Positions 27,851 through 33,021 of a DNA stretch of 33,021 bases are shown piece after piece. This stretch comes from Owenweeksia sp. (GTDB lineage: Bacteria > Bacteroidota > Bacteroidia > Flavobacteriales > Schleiferiaceae): assembly GCA_028285465.1 (NCBI GenBank), contig JANQPD010000001.1, positions 1 to 33,021 of the forward strand. The letters are read 5' to 3'. Positions within the stretch are counted from its first letter, which is position 1. Each line of letters starts with the position of its first letter. The notes under the pieces were generated by a model. It was not told the origin of the DNA. It was given only the letters and a program-made list of their open reading frames with translations, and ran no database searches. The position numbers were made by a program, and so were the translations under genes.

Positions 27851-28570
27851 CTATGAAAAAAGGTTGTAGCGCAGAATGCAATAGATCGCACGAAAACCAT
27901 CTTTCCAGTTGATTTTCTTTCCCTCATCAAAAGTGCGGCCGTAATAGCTAATGCCTACTTCGTATATACGTACGTTGGGAATACGGGCAATTTTGGCGGT
28001 TACTTCCGGTTCAAACCCAAATCGCTTTTCCTTGAGGTTCAAGCTTTGAATGTATTGCGTTTTAAAGAGCTTATAGCAGGTTTCCATATCCGTAAGGTTC
28101 AGGTTGGTAAACATATTGCTTAAGAAAGTCAGGAATTTATTCCCTATAGAATGCCAGAAGAACAATATGCGATGGGGGTTCCCACCCATAAAACGTGATC
28201 CGTAAACCACATCCGCGCTACCGTTTAAAATGGGTTTTAGCAAAACGTTGAATTCTTCGGGGTCGTATTCCAGGTCAGCGTCCTGTATAACGGTGTATTC
28301 TCCCGTAGCTTTACTGATACCCGTGTGCAAGGCAGCCCCCTTCCCTTTGTTTACTTCATGTTTGTAATAGGCAATGTTCAATTCGGGATTTGCGGCCTGG
28401 TAGTCTAAAATAGCCTGTTCCGTATTATCGGTAGAGCAATCGTTTACTAAAATCAGCTCTTTGAGGATACCGTTTTTTAGTTCTACGGCCTTTACACGGT
28501 CCAGGATAAGGTGTATAGTAGCACCCTCATTGTAGGCGGGAATTACAATACTAAGCTTGTTAAATGTCAT
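27851..28570 (-). CDS. Glycosyltransferase family 2, polyprenyl-phosphate sugar synthase-like
   Basis: The likely role is transfer of a hexose from a nucleotide sugar to polyprenyl phosphate, at the inner face of the cytoplasmic membrane, as by Dpm1. The start MTFNKLSIVI gives 239 residues; a TTG at 28594 is rejected. The GT-A core has IVIPAYNEG (8-16), VNDCSTDNT (42-50), NKGKGAALHTGI (74-85) and the metal-binding D97-A-D99 in IQDADLEYDPEEF. RFGFEPEVTAKIA (~177-189) is typical of the Dpm1-like group. No membrane segment is present. It is 29 bp behind the GT39-type gene and in the same operon, consistent with a donor-maker and donor-user pair. Confidence 0.93.
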   Translation of the reverse strand: MTFNKLSIVIPAYNEGATIHLILDRVKAVELKNGILKELILVNDCSTDNTEQAILDYQAANPELNIAYYKHEVNKGKGAALHTGISKATGEYTVIQDADLEYDPEEFNVLLKPILNGSADVVYGSRFMGGNPHRILFFWHSIGNKFLTFLSNMFTNLNLTDMETCYKLFKTQYIQSLNLKEKRFGFEPEVTAKIARIPNVRIYEVGISYYGRTFDEGKKINWKDGFRAIYCILRYNLFS

Positions 28571-28599
28571 TTGCTGATCTAAAAAGGGTGGCAAATATA

Positions 28600-30399
28600 C
28601 TACTCCGCCAGCGTAGTGTCGGGGGCGTTAACGATTTCTATTATGCGGTCCTGGCTGTAGCGGGCTATTACTTCATTCCCATCCGGATAGGTCATTGTGC
28701 CAATCCCTTCTCTCAGGTTGTTTTTCCAGGTTCCCTCAAATACTTGTCCGTTTTTGTATGTAAACGTACCTTTTCCTTCCTTCACACTCATTTGATTCTC
28801 TCCTTGCTGGCGCCACTCTCCTATGTAGCCTACATCTTTGTCGTAAGTAAGCAAGTATGTTTCGGGGTTTTGATACGCCAACAGCTTTTTAAAACGATAA
28901 GGATTGGTTTGGATTACCGGCACTAAATAACGCCCCGTACTGCTGAAACCCAGGGCATCTACCACCACATGTGTAACTTCTTTTTTGTTGAGGTCCTGAA
29001 TAAAGGCGTTGTAATCCATGGTGCTTTGGTAGCGAACGGTTTTCCTGCTGGCAAACAAGTAGAAGAGAGACGGTTTCCGGCAGCATATCACAGCATTAGG
29101 GGCAGTATTGTTTTTTACCCAATCGGCCATGTCGAAATAATTCTGAAAGCGCGAGTCATAGCGCTTGCCTGCGCTGGCATTCAATGCCTTGAGCTGAGGC
29201 ATGAAAAGCAAAACGGAAGCCAGTAAAATCAGGGGGTTGACCTGCAGGTCTAAGGCTATTTTTTTGCTTAGGAAATTCAGGATCTCGTAAATGCCATAAA
29301 AGAAAAAGAAAGTGAAAAAAGGCAAGAGGGGCAAAACGAAGCGTATGCCAAACCACACTTCCGGCCACAGCAAGAGTATGCCAAAGGTGCCAATAAAATA
29401 CCAGATAAAGAGGCTGCGGTAACGAGGTAGCTTGATGAGGCCAAACACGATGAGGGCTAAAAAAGAAAGGCCAAGCAGAATACCCGATACCTCTATGTCT
29501 GCCCTATAGTCTACCTGGATCGAAGGAAACATGCCATTGGGTATTTCTTTGCTTATATAGCGTCCCAGGTTTTCAAAGAAGCGCCCAAAGAAATCGCTTA
29601 CATCCATCATACCTTCCTCAGGCCGGTAGGGGTTCTTCATAAAAAGCTGTTGAATATACCCGTTTCCGCCCAGGTTGCGTCCCCGTAAAAACCAGGGAAG
29701 GCAGAGCAGGATAAAGCCACCCAGGTATGCCCCTAAATAGGCAAACTGCCTGCGCAGCAGGAGGTAAAGTACAATGCCCCCGATCAGCGCCAAACCTGCG
29801 GTACGTATATGGAAGGCATATGCGCTCAAAGCAATGACCACATAAAGCTGCGGCTGTTGGAACGGCTTGTCCTGGTTAATGGTCTGTATAAAGAAATAGA
29901 TAATGAGCAAGGAGAAAAACAGAAAAGGTATTTCGCTCATCATAATGGTGCTGTAAGACAGTAAATGCATATTGAAAAGCATCAACACTGCACCAAGAAA
30001 AGCGAGGCGGGAATTCTTTAAAATATCTTTGAGGATGTAAAACATGACCAGGCTTGAACCCAAAAGGAAAAGGCCGTTCATACTTTTCAGAAAACCGATG
30101 TCTTCTGAAAAAACCCACATAAAAAAGGACAAAATAGAAGGATAACCAGGGGGGAAGTGGTTGTGAGGGGGATTGCCCGGCATATGGATGTTTGAATAGC
30201 CTTGCCCGCTGGCGATGCTTTTGCCCAGGATGTAATAGCCTGCATTGTCGCCCCCTAAATTTATTTTCGCATCATATATATAGCTATAAATAAAGGCAAA
30301 ACTCAATACAATAAGAAAAGGGTAAAGCAGGTTTTTTAAAGAAAATGTTGAAGAGGTCTTTAAAGCTTTACCGGTTGGTTTAACTGCTTTTCGGGACAT
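28600..30399 (-). CDS. GT39/ArnT-like membrane glycosyltransferase with C-terminal MORN repeats
   Basis: This multi-pass enzyme of the GT-C fold uses polyprenyl-phosphate sugar to glycosylate protein or lipid on the periplasmic side. The start MSRKAVKPTG gives 599 residues; the GTG at 30420 is inside the promoter. The first membrane helix is ~25-42. The following periplasmic loop has the family's catalytic-type Asp (GGDNAGYYILGKSIASGQGY, ~49-68) and HFPPGYP (~79-85). About ten further hydrophobic helices run to ~405, then a soluble domain. Residues ~524-585 form two to three MORN-type repeats (YIGEW, GKGTFTYKNGQVFEGTWKNN, GIGTMTYPDG). The MORN tail is unusual for this family. The gene has its own promoter. 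Confidence 0.88.
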   Translation of the reverse strand: MSRKAVKPTGKALKTSSTFSLKNLLYPFLIVLSFAFIYSYIYDAKINLGGDNAGYYILGKSIASGQGYSNIHMPGNPPHNHFPPGYPSILSFFMWVFSEDIGFLKSMNGLFLLGSSLVMFYILKDILKNSRLAFLGAVLMLFNMHLLSYSTIMMSEIPFLFFSLLIIYFFIQTINQDKPFQQPQLYVVIALSAYAFHIRTAGLALIGGIVLYLLLRRQFAYLGAYLGGFILLCLPWFLRGRNLGGNGYIQQLFMKNPYRPEEGMMDVSDFFGRFFENLGRYISKEIPNGMFPSIQVDYRADIEVSGILLGLSFLALIVFGLIKLPRYRSLFIWYFIGTFGILLLWPEVWFGIRFVLPLLPFFTFFFFYGIYEILNFLSKKIALDLQVNPLILLASVLLFMPQLKALNASAGKRYDSRFQNYFDMADWVKNNTAPNAVICCRKPSLFYLFASRKTVRYQSTMDYNAFIQDLNKKEVTHVVVDALGFSSTGRYLVPVIQTNPYRFKKLLAYQNPETYLLTYDKDVGYIGEWRQQGENQMSVKEGKGTFTYKNGQVFEGTWKNNLREGIGTMTYPDGNEVIARYSQDRIIEIVNAPDTTLAE

Positions 30400-30449: not shown

Positions 30450-30483
30450 AAAAATAAAGCCCGCATAAAGCGGGCTTTATTTT
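30448..30483 (-). terminator. Rho-independent terminator of the T9SS mini-protein gene
   Basis: AAAATAAAGCCCGC (30451-30464) and GCGGGCTTTATTTT (30470-30483) are a perfect 14-bp stem around ATAAA. On the minus strand it runs into a T run (complement of A 30448-30454). It lies 18 bp after the stop at 30502 and isolates this gene from the GT39 operon. Confidence 0.92.
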
Positions 30484-30501: not shown

Positions 30502-30918
30502 TTATTGGATGGATAGCCTTAAGCTTCGTTCTCCTAGTTTTACTATATAGTAACCTTTGGGCAGAGCGCTCAGGTCAAAATCCATTTCCTGGATGCCGCT
30601 TCTTTTGGGTAGTGTATACCTGCGCATCAAATTCCCTATCAGGTTGTATACCAGTAAATCACCCTGCTCGGATTGGGCTATATACTTGAGCGTTACTTTA
30701 CCGCGGGAAGGATTAGGGTAAAGTGAAAAAACGTTCAGCTTAACAGCTTCCTGATCAGAAAGTGTTGTTGGTGGTTCCCACTCTGGAGGCGGATTGCCCA
30801 CATCCGGATCTACAACAGTAGGTTGACTCTGGGTATTGCCCTGGCTTTGCGCCTGCGCAGCAATACCAAGCAAGAGCATGAGAACAAGAAAGGGGAGTGT
30901 CTTGATAAGATTTTTCAT
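30502..30918 (-). CDS. Small T9SS-sorted protein: signal peptide plus sorting domain only
   Basis: The 138-residue protein has a signal peptide (1-23, ending AQAQ), then a ~38-residue Pro/Gln/Asp-rich linker (24-61, with PPPEWEPP). A full type A T9SS C-terminal domain occupies ~62-138. The sorting-domain hallmarks are SLYPNPSRGKVTLKY (65-79), LLVYNLIGNLMRRYTL (88-103), DLSALPKGYYIVKL (115-128) and a basic end LRLSIQ. No catalytic or adhesin domain precedes it, whereas T9SS cargo is normally several hundred residues. It is monocistronic with a strong terminator, and divergent from the sensor kinase gene. It could be a minimal surface/secreted peptide or a remnant; I see no frameshift. Confidence 0.9.
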   Translation of the reverse strand: MKNLIKTLPFLVLMLLLGIAAQAQSQGNTQSQPTVVDPDVGNPPPEWEPPTTLSDQEAVKLNVFSLYPNPSRGKVTLKYIAQSEQGDLLVYNLIGNLMRRYTLPKRSGIQEMDFDLSALPKGYYIVKLGERSLRLSIQ

Positions 30919-31042
30919 AGTGTTTTAGTTTTTATGTTTTCGTCTCGTAAAGCTACCTATTAGACACATCTTATACTGTTAAGGGTTGCCTGAATGATGT
31001 TAAAATCTTGTTAAGGACACATAAATCCGGCTTTTGCACGTT

Positions 31043-31050
31043 TACTTTTG
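31043..31050 (+). promoter_or_regulatory. Candidate -7 box of the sensor kinase gene
   Basis: TACTTTTG matches TAnnTTTG 11 bp before the ATG at 31062. No TTG is found at the proper distance. The region 30919-31061 between the two divergent genes has no other clear element; TAGCTTTA on the minus strand (within 30950-30960) is a weak -7 candidate for the T9SS gene. Confidence 0.35.
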
Positions 31051-31061
31051 TGCCAGCCGTT

Positions 31062-32609
31062 ATGAAATTAAAGGTATTAAAAAGTAAAAAAAGGCTTTCC
31101 TGGCTCATTGTTTTTATGAGCCTTTCTCTCCTGGGGGTCAGTGGCATTCAGTCGTACTGGATTGTGAATTCTTATGCCATCAAACAAGAAAAATTTGACC
31201 AGGAAGTAGCAGAAGCTTTACAAGATGTTTCCAACCGCTTGGAAACAATGGAAAGCATGAATATGATCATGAATTCCTTTAACCTGGAGCCTCTCTTTTT
31301 CAGGAATAGAAAGCTTGATCCCCCCGGTTCCCTTGCGGATTCTTCCATACGCCTTAACGGACAGTATTCATATAAGCGGAATTTAAGCCTTTCCTTTCAG
31401 GTAAATGACGATACTATTTTTGACCTGGACAGCAGGGGAAATTTACATGCCGCGGTATTAGACGATACCAACGCATTGCCCGGGGAAGGCATAAGCTATT
31501 TCAACCTCAGGCAAAAAGCCCGGCAAATGGATTCCGTATTCCGCCAGATGATCCTCTTTAATCTGACGCGGGGCTATGGCATTCAACAACGCTTGCTTAG
31601 TGAACATTTGGACAGTCTCCTTGCCTTTGAATTAAAAGCCAGGGGGATTCATTTAGACTATGCTTATGTGGTGAAGAATGATGAAGCGGCTATTACCTTT
31701 CAAAATAAGGAGGAATTATTAGATGAAAGAAAAGCCTATAAAACAGCTCTTTTTTCCAGTGATGTATTAGCCCCCAGCCTGCTGATGGTGAGTTTCCCGC
31801 AAAAAGCAAATTACCTGCTCAGCAGCATGTGGCTCACTTTGCTCTTTAGCGCCCTGTTCATTGTGGCTATGATCATCACTTTTTATAAAACGCTCACATA
31901 CTCTTTGCAGCAAAAGCGGATTAATGATATTAAAACGGACTTCATCAATAATATGACCCATGAGTTTAAAACCCCGATTGCGACCATAAACCTGGCAATC
32001 GATGCCTTGAATAACCCTAAAGTCATAAACTCGCCAGAGCGTATCCGGCAGTACAGTGAAGTGATCAAACAGGAGAACAGCCGGATGAACATACAGGTAG
32101 AAAGTGTATTGCGCACTGCTTTAATGGATAAAAAAGAACTTGAACTGAGCTTTGAACCAACGGTCCTTTCTACTCTATTGGATGAATGCATAGAACATGT
32201 ACGCCTGAGTTTGGAGAGTAAAGGCGGGCAGATACAAAAGTTTTATAACGATGGAGGGGTAGAGTTGCATATAGACGCGAACCACATCGGAAATACAATC
32301 ATTAACCTACTGGATAACGCCATTAAGTACTCTATAAACGCACCTCAGATACGGGTTGCAACAGAGCTTACCGGGAGTCACCTCATCATCATTGTAAGCG
32401 ATAAGGGGATGGGCATGACAAAAGAGGAACAGAAGCACATTTTCGAAAGTTTTTACCGCATAAGCGGGGGGAACGTGCACAACATAAAAGGGCATGGTCT
32501 TGGTTTAAGCTATGCATATGGCATAGTGGAAGCCCATGGTGGGAGGATTACTGTTGAGAGCGAAAGAGGTGAGGGCAGTAAATTCTACGTCTACTTGCCT
32601 AGAACCTGA
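31062..32609 (+). CDS. Two-component sensor histidine kinase, RprX-like
   Basis: This inner-membrane sensor phosphorylates the response regulator encoded just downstream. The start MKLKVLKSKK gives 515 residues; an upstream TTG is rejected. TM1 is ~12-34 and TM2 ~254-276. The periplasmic domain (~35-253) begins with IKQEKFDQEVAEALQDVSNR, the pattern I associate with RprX-type sensors of Bacteroides and Porphyromonas. HisKA has H300 in MTHEFKTPIATINLA. The ATPase domain has the N box NLLDNAIKYS, the DKGMGM motif and GHGLGLSYAYGIVEAHGG. There is no HAMP, PAS or receiver domain. The signal is unknown; envelope stress is plausible. The stop is 12 bp from the regulator start. Confidence 0.95.
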   Translation: MKLKVLKSKKRLSWLIVFMSLSLLGVSGIQSYWIVNSYAIKQEKFDQEVAEALQDVSNRLETMESMNMIMNSFNLEPLFFRNRKLDPPGSLADSSIRLNGQYSYKRNLSLSFQVNDDTIFDLDSRGNLHAAVLDDTNALPGEGISYFNLRQKARQMDSVFRQMILFNLTRGYGIQQRLLSEHLDSLLAFELKARGIHLDYAYVVKNDEAAITFQNKEELLDERKAYKTALFSSDVLAPSLLMVSFPQKANYLLSSMWLTLLFSALFIVAMIITFYKTLTYSLQQKRINDIKTDFINNMTHEFKTPIATINLAIDALNNPKVINSPERIRQYSEVIKQENSRMNIQVESVLRTALMDKKELELSFEPTVLSTLLDECIEHVRLSLESKGGQIQKFYNDGGVELHIDANHIGNTIINLLDNAIKYSINAPQIRVATELTGSHLIIIVSDKGMGMTKEEQKHIFESFYRISGGNVHNIKGHGLGLSYAYGIVEAHGGRITVESERGEGSKFYVYLPRT

Positions 32610-32621
32610 ACGCTATAGAAT

Positions 32622-33021
32622 ATGGAACAACACAAGATATTACTGGTTGAGGACGATGCAAACTTTGGTGCAGTGCTGCGGGATTACCTCGAGCTACATG
32701 ATTTTGAGGTTATATTGGAAAAAGACGGCATATTAGGTATGCTGGCGTTTAAAAAACACGAGCCGGCTGTCTGTATCCTCGATGTGATGATGCCTAATAA
32801 AGATGGGTTTACGCTGGCTAAAGAAATTCGTGACCTCGACAAAGAAGTGCCGCTTATATTCCTGACGGCTAAAACACTTAAGCAGGATATTCTCAATGGT
32901 TACCAGATCGGGGCGGATGATTATTTAACCAAGCCTTTTGATTCTGAGGTATTGCTCTATAAGATCAAGGCGCTCCTGCAGCGCAGCCAGGTCCCCCCGG
33001 AGGCCGAAGAAACGGTGGTTC
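32622..33021 (+). CDS. Response regulator (partial, cut by window end)
   Basis: The frame starts MEQHKILLVEDD and is open to the last base (133 residues seen). The receiver domain is complete: acidic pocket D11-D12, phosphoacceptor D54 (CILDVMMPNKDGF), T82 (FLTAKT) and K104 (YLTKPF). A linker begins at ~120 (LLQRSQVPPEAEE), as in OmpR-family regulators, so a winged-helix DNA-binding domain is expected beyond the edge. A PglZ-type (PorX) output cannot be excluded from this piece. It is 12 bp behind the RprX-like kinase in one operon, so it is most likely an RprY-like regulator. Confidence 0.93.
   Translation, partial: MEQHKILLVEDDANFGAVLRDYLELHDFEVILEKDGILGMLAFKKHEPAVCILDVMMPNKDGFTLAKEIRDLDKEVPLIFLTAKTLKQDILNGYQIGADDYLTKPFDSEVLLYKIKALLQRSQVPPEAEETVV

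Follow-up and report, generated by a model that had tools for sequence, protein, structure and literature searches.

The cpxP gene of E. coli is divergent to its own two-component system, and its product is an exported accessory protein of that system, alongside an HtrA/DegP-type protease. CpxP is described as being controlled by Cpx, inhibiting CpxA and working with DegP (PMC4160245). A second system involves the T9SS C-terminal sorting domain (CTD). PorA (PGN_0123) of Porphyromonas gingivalis, a small CTD protein (246 aa, FimH-like N-terminal domain), is tied to a two-component sensor; it is placed upstream of the PorY kinase, its partner system is PorXY-SigP rather than RprXY, and its homologs are reported, as far as that account goes, only in Porphyromonas (PMC7712824). 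The same account presents Fjoh_0547 of Flavobacterium johnsoniae as a CTD protein of 112 aa, reported to appear in the medium when sprA or porV is mutated, and states that neither PorA nor Fjoh_0547 needs the T9SS channel to reach the outside. The rprX/rprY pair is given as the sole two-component regulator reported essential in B. fragilis (PMC4072883); RprY of P. gingivalis is stated to bind its own promoter (PMC3646045), and rprX to have been lost from that species (PMC6032018). RprXY-like systems were present across many Bacteroidota genomes in our comparison set.

In the window (the whole stretch of 33,021 nucleotides that was analyzed), a short CTD gene lies back to back with, and divergent to, a kinase gene that directly precedes a regulator gene. 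The features of the locus are as follows.

30502..30918, minus strand: CTD-only T9SS gene (short gene), ATG-start ORF of 138 aa; PF18962 and TIGR04183 above cut-off, 15 intact orthologs
30850..30918, minus strand: predicted signal peptide, residues 1-23 (...AQA/QS), by eye from the translation
30733..30849, minus strand: Pro-rich linker of 39 residues (24-62), modelled with low confidence
30769-30795, minus strand: PPP motif in the linker, residues 42-50; across 15 orthologs P45 and P49 hardly vary
30502..30732, minus strand: sorting domain (CTD), residues 63-138 plus stop codon, from profiles, model strands and structure alignments
30919..31061, no strand: promoter gap common to the short gene and the kinase, compared across relatives
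30999..31014, plus strand: direct-repeat box GTTAAAATCTTGTTAA (GTTAAAn5GTTAA), putative RprY site, kept upstream of rprX in relatives
31062..32609, plus strand: RprX-like sensor histidine kinase, 515 aa, by HisKA and HATPase_c (Pfam) and orthologs
32622..33021, plus strand: RprY-like response regulator, truncated where the window ends, by Response_reg (Pfam) and NF051850

The first-pass annotation had described the 138-residue product as a signal peptide, a Pro-rich linker of ~38 residues and a complete sorting domain. This description held, with an exact ORF, a signal peptide read by eye and a linker of 39 residues. A type A sorting domain was matched at residues 66-130 by PF18962 (39.3 bits vs. 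a cut-off of 27, Pfam) and at residues 66-129 by TIGR04183 (32.9 bits vs. a cut-off of 23, NCBIfam). PF18962 was the sole Pfam family on the short protein at E<=1, and no Pfam match was found between the signal and the CTD. Both profile alignments end short of the last profile positions; in the AlphaFold model, built from 15 orthologs, seven strands span residues 64-137, so that the modelled sorting domain is complete through to the C-terminus although the profile matches stop early. Mean pLDDT was 70.3 and pTM 0.50, with 10-residue block means of 70-95 from residue 61 onward and low confidence in the signal and linker. Structure alignments of the model gave Z 9.3 with 8qb1 (rmsd 2.1 over 71), Z 9.2 with 8glk_D (rmsd 2.5 over 71) and Z 8.7 with PorU 6za2 (rmsd 2.3 over 79), with solved T9SS sorting domains tied with unrelated Ig-like folds. 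Foldseek alone found no match < 1e-3 for this model or for the RprX sensor model.

A 14-bp terminator and a divergent sensor kinase had also been claimed, and both were recovered. The terminator-like hairpin (30451..30483, minus strand) has a 14-bp stem, a 5-nt loop and a U-rich end and lies 18 nt past the short-gene stop; its folding energy was -21.2 kcal/mol (z -5.66), with 0/200 shuffles as good, and a simple terminator scanner at its thresholds found none. SprA, of the T9SS translocon, is present in the same genome as two contig pieces, both above cut-off. Judged from its sequence, the short protein is a minimal T9SS type A substrate with predicted export.

The kinase and regulator look like RprX and RprY. 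The best NCBIfam match of the regulator, whose gene is cut by the window end, was NF051850 (RprY), with 158.4 bits vs. the 370-bit cut-off for the full protein; nothing in the PDB was matched by the RprX sensor model. The layout is CpxP-like in that the short gene is divergent to rprXY, with a conserved box, a putative RprY site, in the common gap. No CpxP-type sequence or helical fold was found in the short protein (Pfam; beta-sandwich model): CpxP is described as a helical periplasmic protein (PMC4160245), whereas the short protein is modelled as a beta-sandwich with a secretion tag. Membership of the PorA group was rejected, since the ~39 residues from signal to CTD leave no room for the ~135-residue FimH-like domain. 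Among the matches listed from the open-licence literature, titles and abstract starts contained nothing on a link between the short gene and rprX.

Orthologs were sought from the kinase, hence independently of the short gene. The kinase was matched at E<=1e-40 in 60/88 family genomes, and the loci were read for 30 of them. The kinase was >=46% identical over the aligned part in 17 genomes, and in 14 of these the short gene was intact, adjacent and divergent (G000, G003, G004, G005, G014, G015, G016, G017, G018, G019, G020, G022, G025, G026). One copy was broken by an in-frame stop inside the CTD (G002, locus L050), and in two genomes (G027 and G028) the gene was absent, rprX and the box were kept, and a glycosyltransferase gene adjoined the kinase instead. 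A more distant kinase (40%, G023) is also accompanied by a short gene, whose linker is without the PPP motif. Co-occurrence with the kinase, which the first-pass annotation had proposed as a check, is supported for part of the family. Among the 12 other family loci, three had full-size T9SS cargo in this slot and seven were without a recognised CTD gene; in G032 a similar protein begins and runs off the end of the locus, and G034 was without upstream sequence.

The first-pass annotation had proposed a search for homologs of the same architecture. The 15 intact short copies are 127-150 aa long (some start codons are ambiguous), have predicted signal peptides, matched PF18962 at E<=0.01 (15/15), and vary in their linkers except at the PPP motif. 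The dN/dS of the short gene was 0.07 in the only unsaturated pair (G014/G015, dS 0.37) and 0.09-0.19 in five more-diverged pairs (dS 1.4-2.9), with a seventh pair not computable. By these sequence comparisons the short gene is a real, conserved gene under purifying selection; a chance ORF or a remnant was rejected on synteny, profile scores and dN/dS. The proposal that it is a real expressed gene is supported by the syntenic orthologs, the low dN/dS, the terminator-like hairpin and a conserved operator-like repeat.

The shared gap holds, besides the box, an additional GTTAA at 30978. The relaxed pattern GTTAAn6GTTAA was found upstream of the kinase in 15/15 short-gene loci scored (a 16th, L043, was left out of scoring and has the repeat by eye), 6/9 family loci without the short gene, and 64/79 named Bacteroidota and 35/78 order/phylum loci, two sets that overlap in lineage and are not independent. 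For each set, mononucleotide shuffles predict 0.0-0.2 and the reversed pattern gave 0, 0, 0 and 1. Genome-wide, the strict box was found four times in the own genome vs. four for the reversed control, and 35 vs. 32 times in six relatives (39 vs. 36 in the seven genomes), so a case for a regulon from box counts alone was rejected.

All four sites of the own genome lie in promoter-like gaps, at rprX/short gene, an HtrA-type protease, ftsX and moxR (Pfam assigned HtrA and MoxR; ftsX, and the gene identities in the six relatives, were judged by eye). In 7/7 family genomes the box stands ahead of rprX/short gene, of htrA and of moxR, which accounts for 21/39 sites; two others are at ftsX, two before PDZ-CTD genes, and 14 remain. 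Its orientation is constant in 7/7 genomes, on the strand of htrA and rprX and opposite to the short gene and moxR. The distance from the box is 76-85 bp to the short-gene start, 81-83 bp to the htrA start in 6/7 genomes (103 bp in G003) and about 81-106 bp to the moxR starts, which are approximate. We infer that the box is a candidate RprY-binding site. The short gene, in its CpxP-like position, probably belongs to an RprY envelope-stress regulon, because the same three promoters carry the oriented box in 7/7 genomes.

G022 (L238:1586-2869, plus strand) and G003 (L265:1583-2944, plus strand) each encode a protein that combines two PDZ domains with a T9SS CTD, with PF18962 scores of 50.0 and 43.1 bits, respectively, both behind a GTTAAAn5GTTAA box. 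Because the same box precedes the gene, this may be a second T9SS-tagged protein in the RprY regulon. The own genome has no PDZ-CTD homolog at E<=1e-10.

Outside the family the slot divergent to rprX varies. A same-direction coaE lies upstream of rprX in 46/79 named and 26/78 order/phylum loci (L121, of 80 named loci, and L203 and L217 of the order/phylum set were left out of the neighbor counts). In order-mates coaE and rprXY are laid out as in the named Flavobacteriaceae loci, and most Flavobacteriaceae-type loci have no such divergent gene. The nearest upstream ORF is divergent and >=100 aa in 22/79 named and 39/78 order/phylum loci. At least 11 of these 61 divergent neighbors have a type A CTD above the curated cut-off, by Pfam in L082, L091 (620-nt gap), L112, L114, L124, L139, L168, L193 and L222, and by TIGR04183 in L207 and L090, the latter scored through its identical copy L270, which is family genome G036 again; the number is a lower bound, as the scan took in only ORFs flagged by our own profile or by eye.

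Tagged slot proteins of 289-414 aa occur in other families, and slot cargo elsewhere includes acidic T9SS proteins. The sister genus g14, of the same family, has FG-GAP proteins of 915 aa (G033) and 910 aa (G036) and a 610-aa M36-type protein (G035, L268) in the slot; the three CTDs score above the TIGR04183 cut-off and reach 26.9, 17.5 and 25.8 of 27 bits with PF18962. The longer rprX-divergent CTD proteins (such as L124, L112, L168 and L269) share the slot with the short gene and differ from it in their passengers of roughly 200-800 aa. As read from these loci, the T9SS tag is a recurrent occupant of the slot, and the passenger changes, down to none.

Some loci, notably in family f30, have a secreted-looking slot protein without a recognised CTD. 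Five of these proteins (L176, L184, L192, L195 and L206, mostly f30) share the pattern LKGKxEKLTIKxDGKDVVFEG; L176, the sole one scanned, had no Pfam match. SprA was present in 27/27 genomes checked, including 18 from the group without a recognised slot CTD, and the presence of a slot CTD does not track SprA.

With profile A2 the slot gene ranked first in 3/9 genomes (G664, G594, G666), second in G665 and 15th of 29 in G667; in 4/9 (G496, G625, G516, G415) it did not appear among the matches listed. The comparison is suggestive only of homology between the short gene and the longer slot genes. NF038113 (M36-type cargo) gave a weak tail match, and descent from M36-type cargo is possible. The first-pass annotation had held that full-length cargo at this locus in relatives would mark the gene as a truncated remnant. 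Such cargo does occur (610-915 aa in the sister genus, 289-414 aa in other families), and, because of it, the short gene may have descended from longer cargo; it is not a decaying remnant, because there are 15 intact short orthologs under purifying selection.

Of the three roles suggested in the first-pass annotation (an exported peptide, a competitor for the sorting machinery, a reporter of T9SS state), none is set above the others by these results. Reasoning by analogy, we tentatively favor, at somewhat less than an even chance, a minimal T9SS substrate that works in the RprXY circuit as an accessory or feedback protein of RprX, CpxP-like in position and PorA-like in kind. RprY would control the short gene via the box, as part of an envelope-stress regulon, and the short protein would enter the periplasm and would normally leave via the T9SS or sit at the outer membrane. 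Its periplasmic level would depend on the state of the envelope and of the T9SS, and would adjust RprX through the periplasmic domain of RprX. The short gene may in this way help the cell monitor its envelope.

This RprX-accessory reading is supported because (i) the gene is divergent and adjacent in 14/17 close-kinase genomes and in G023; (ii) its dN/dS is low; (iii) 7/7 genomes have the oriented box ahead of rprX/short gene, htrA and moxR; (iv) the slot repeatedly holds T9SS-tagged proteins elsewhere; (v) SprA is present in the own genome; and (vi) PorA and CpxP, as described, are precedents (PMC7712824; PMC4160245). Against it, box counts are not above the reversed control (39 vs. 36), G027 and G028 keep rprX and the box although they lack the gene, most Flavobacteriaceae-type loci are without such a gene, at least 18 SprA genomes have no recognised slot CTD, a PDB search with the RprX sensor model gave no match, and PorA and Fjoh_0547 are reported to get out independently of the T9SS channel.

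A further step would be that RprXY watches T9SS export through a dummy substrate, made in step with RprY activity and removed from the periplasm only if the T9SS or the outer membrane is functional. Its retention would set RprX output in an export-coupled loop like FlgM/CpxP, and in several Bacteroidota lineages the slot would keep the tag through changes of passenger because the tag carries the information. We consider this step doubtful: many SprA genomes have no tag in the slot, and a CTD on its own does not necessarily reflect T9SS state, because PorA and Fjoh_0547 are reported to exit without the T9SS channel (PMC7712824).

Alternatively, the Pro-rich peptide would itself be the cargo, the sortase removing the CTD and the stress-induced tail being released or placed on surface polysaccharide, with no feedback on RprX. 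The complete CTD is in keeping with this, as is the linker, variable apart from the surroundings of the PPP motif. However, the tail has only ~39 residues, the PPP motif is missing from G023, and the CTD is better conserved than the linker (dN/dS by part in five relatives of one genus: signal 0.19, linker 0.33, CTD 0.11); we regard a surface tail as unlikely, if conceivable.

That the short gene is a mere sharer of the promoter gap, or an RprY target with an unrelated surface role and no signaling link, is rather unlikely. The slot does hold very different passengers (FG-GAP, M36 or none at all), and G027 and G028 manage without the gene, but the divergent pairing is kept in 15 genomes with a common, oriented box.

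A recognition domain with a short tail, behind an RprY-type box, could also flood the CTD-binding step of the T9SS under envelope stress and slow other cargo. Very high expression would be needed, since 76 own-genome frames match the short protein at E<=1 (median 570 codons; the short gene, with 140 codons stop-to-stop, is the smallest), and this reading is improbable. Finally, a non-functional leftover of longer cargo, suggested by the full-size slot proteins of G033, G036 and G035 and by the in-frame stop in G002, is very hard to credit: the 15 copies of 127-150 aa are intact and have predicted signal peptides, dN/dS is low and the box is conserved.

A conserved T9SS-tagged partner gene with a common box, together with the box at htrA and moxR, makes the question of what RprX senses directly testable.

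Bare sorting domains recur as conserved genes. With our own profile, CTD-only proteins of 122-127 aa were found at two other conserved loci in five genomes (neighbors by eye).

L228:3438-3809, L229:3387-3761 and L230:3228-3608 (G666, G664 and G594): between asnS- and nnrD-like genes
L226:3348-3713 and L227:3297-3680 (G667 and G665): beside a reductase and a type III PKS-like gene

Pfam was positive for 2/2 of these five that were scanned. Like the short protein, they carry a CTD behind a signal peptide (by eye) but no passenger; unlike it, they have no adjoining kinase and shorter linkers. Fjoh_0547 is likewise described as very small with a T9SS CTD (PMC7712824). Single bare-tag T9SS proteins such as Fjoh_0547 are thus known already, and recurrence is seen here at the rprX slot and two other loci. 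CTD-only T9SS proteins are a recurrent class, not annotation debris, because Fjoh_0547 joins the rprX-adjacent and the two other loci.

Two genes on the other side of the short gene were also noted. A dolichyl-phosphate-mannose-synthase-like glycosyltransferase gene (by eye; 27851-28594, minus strand) is in the same place in relatives (such as L037, L038 and L045), where it adjoins the short gene or, in G027 and G028, which lack the short gene, rprX. The gene at 28600-30399 (minus strand) encodes a PMT-type (glycosyltransferase 39-like) membrane protein with C-terminal MORN repeats (PF02493 39.8 bits, PF02366 28.7 bits), a combination that is unusual. G024 (L272) has a similar protein whose end seems, by eye, MORN-like.
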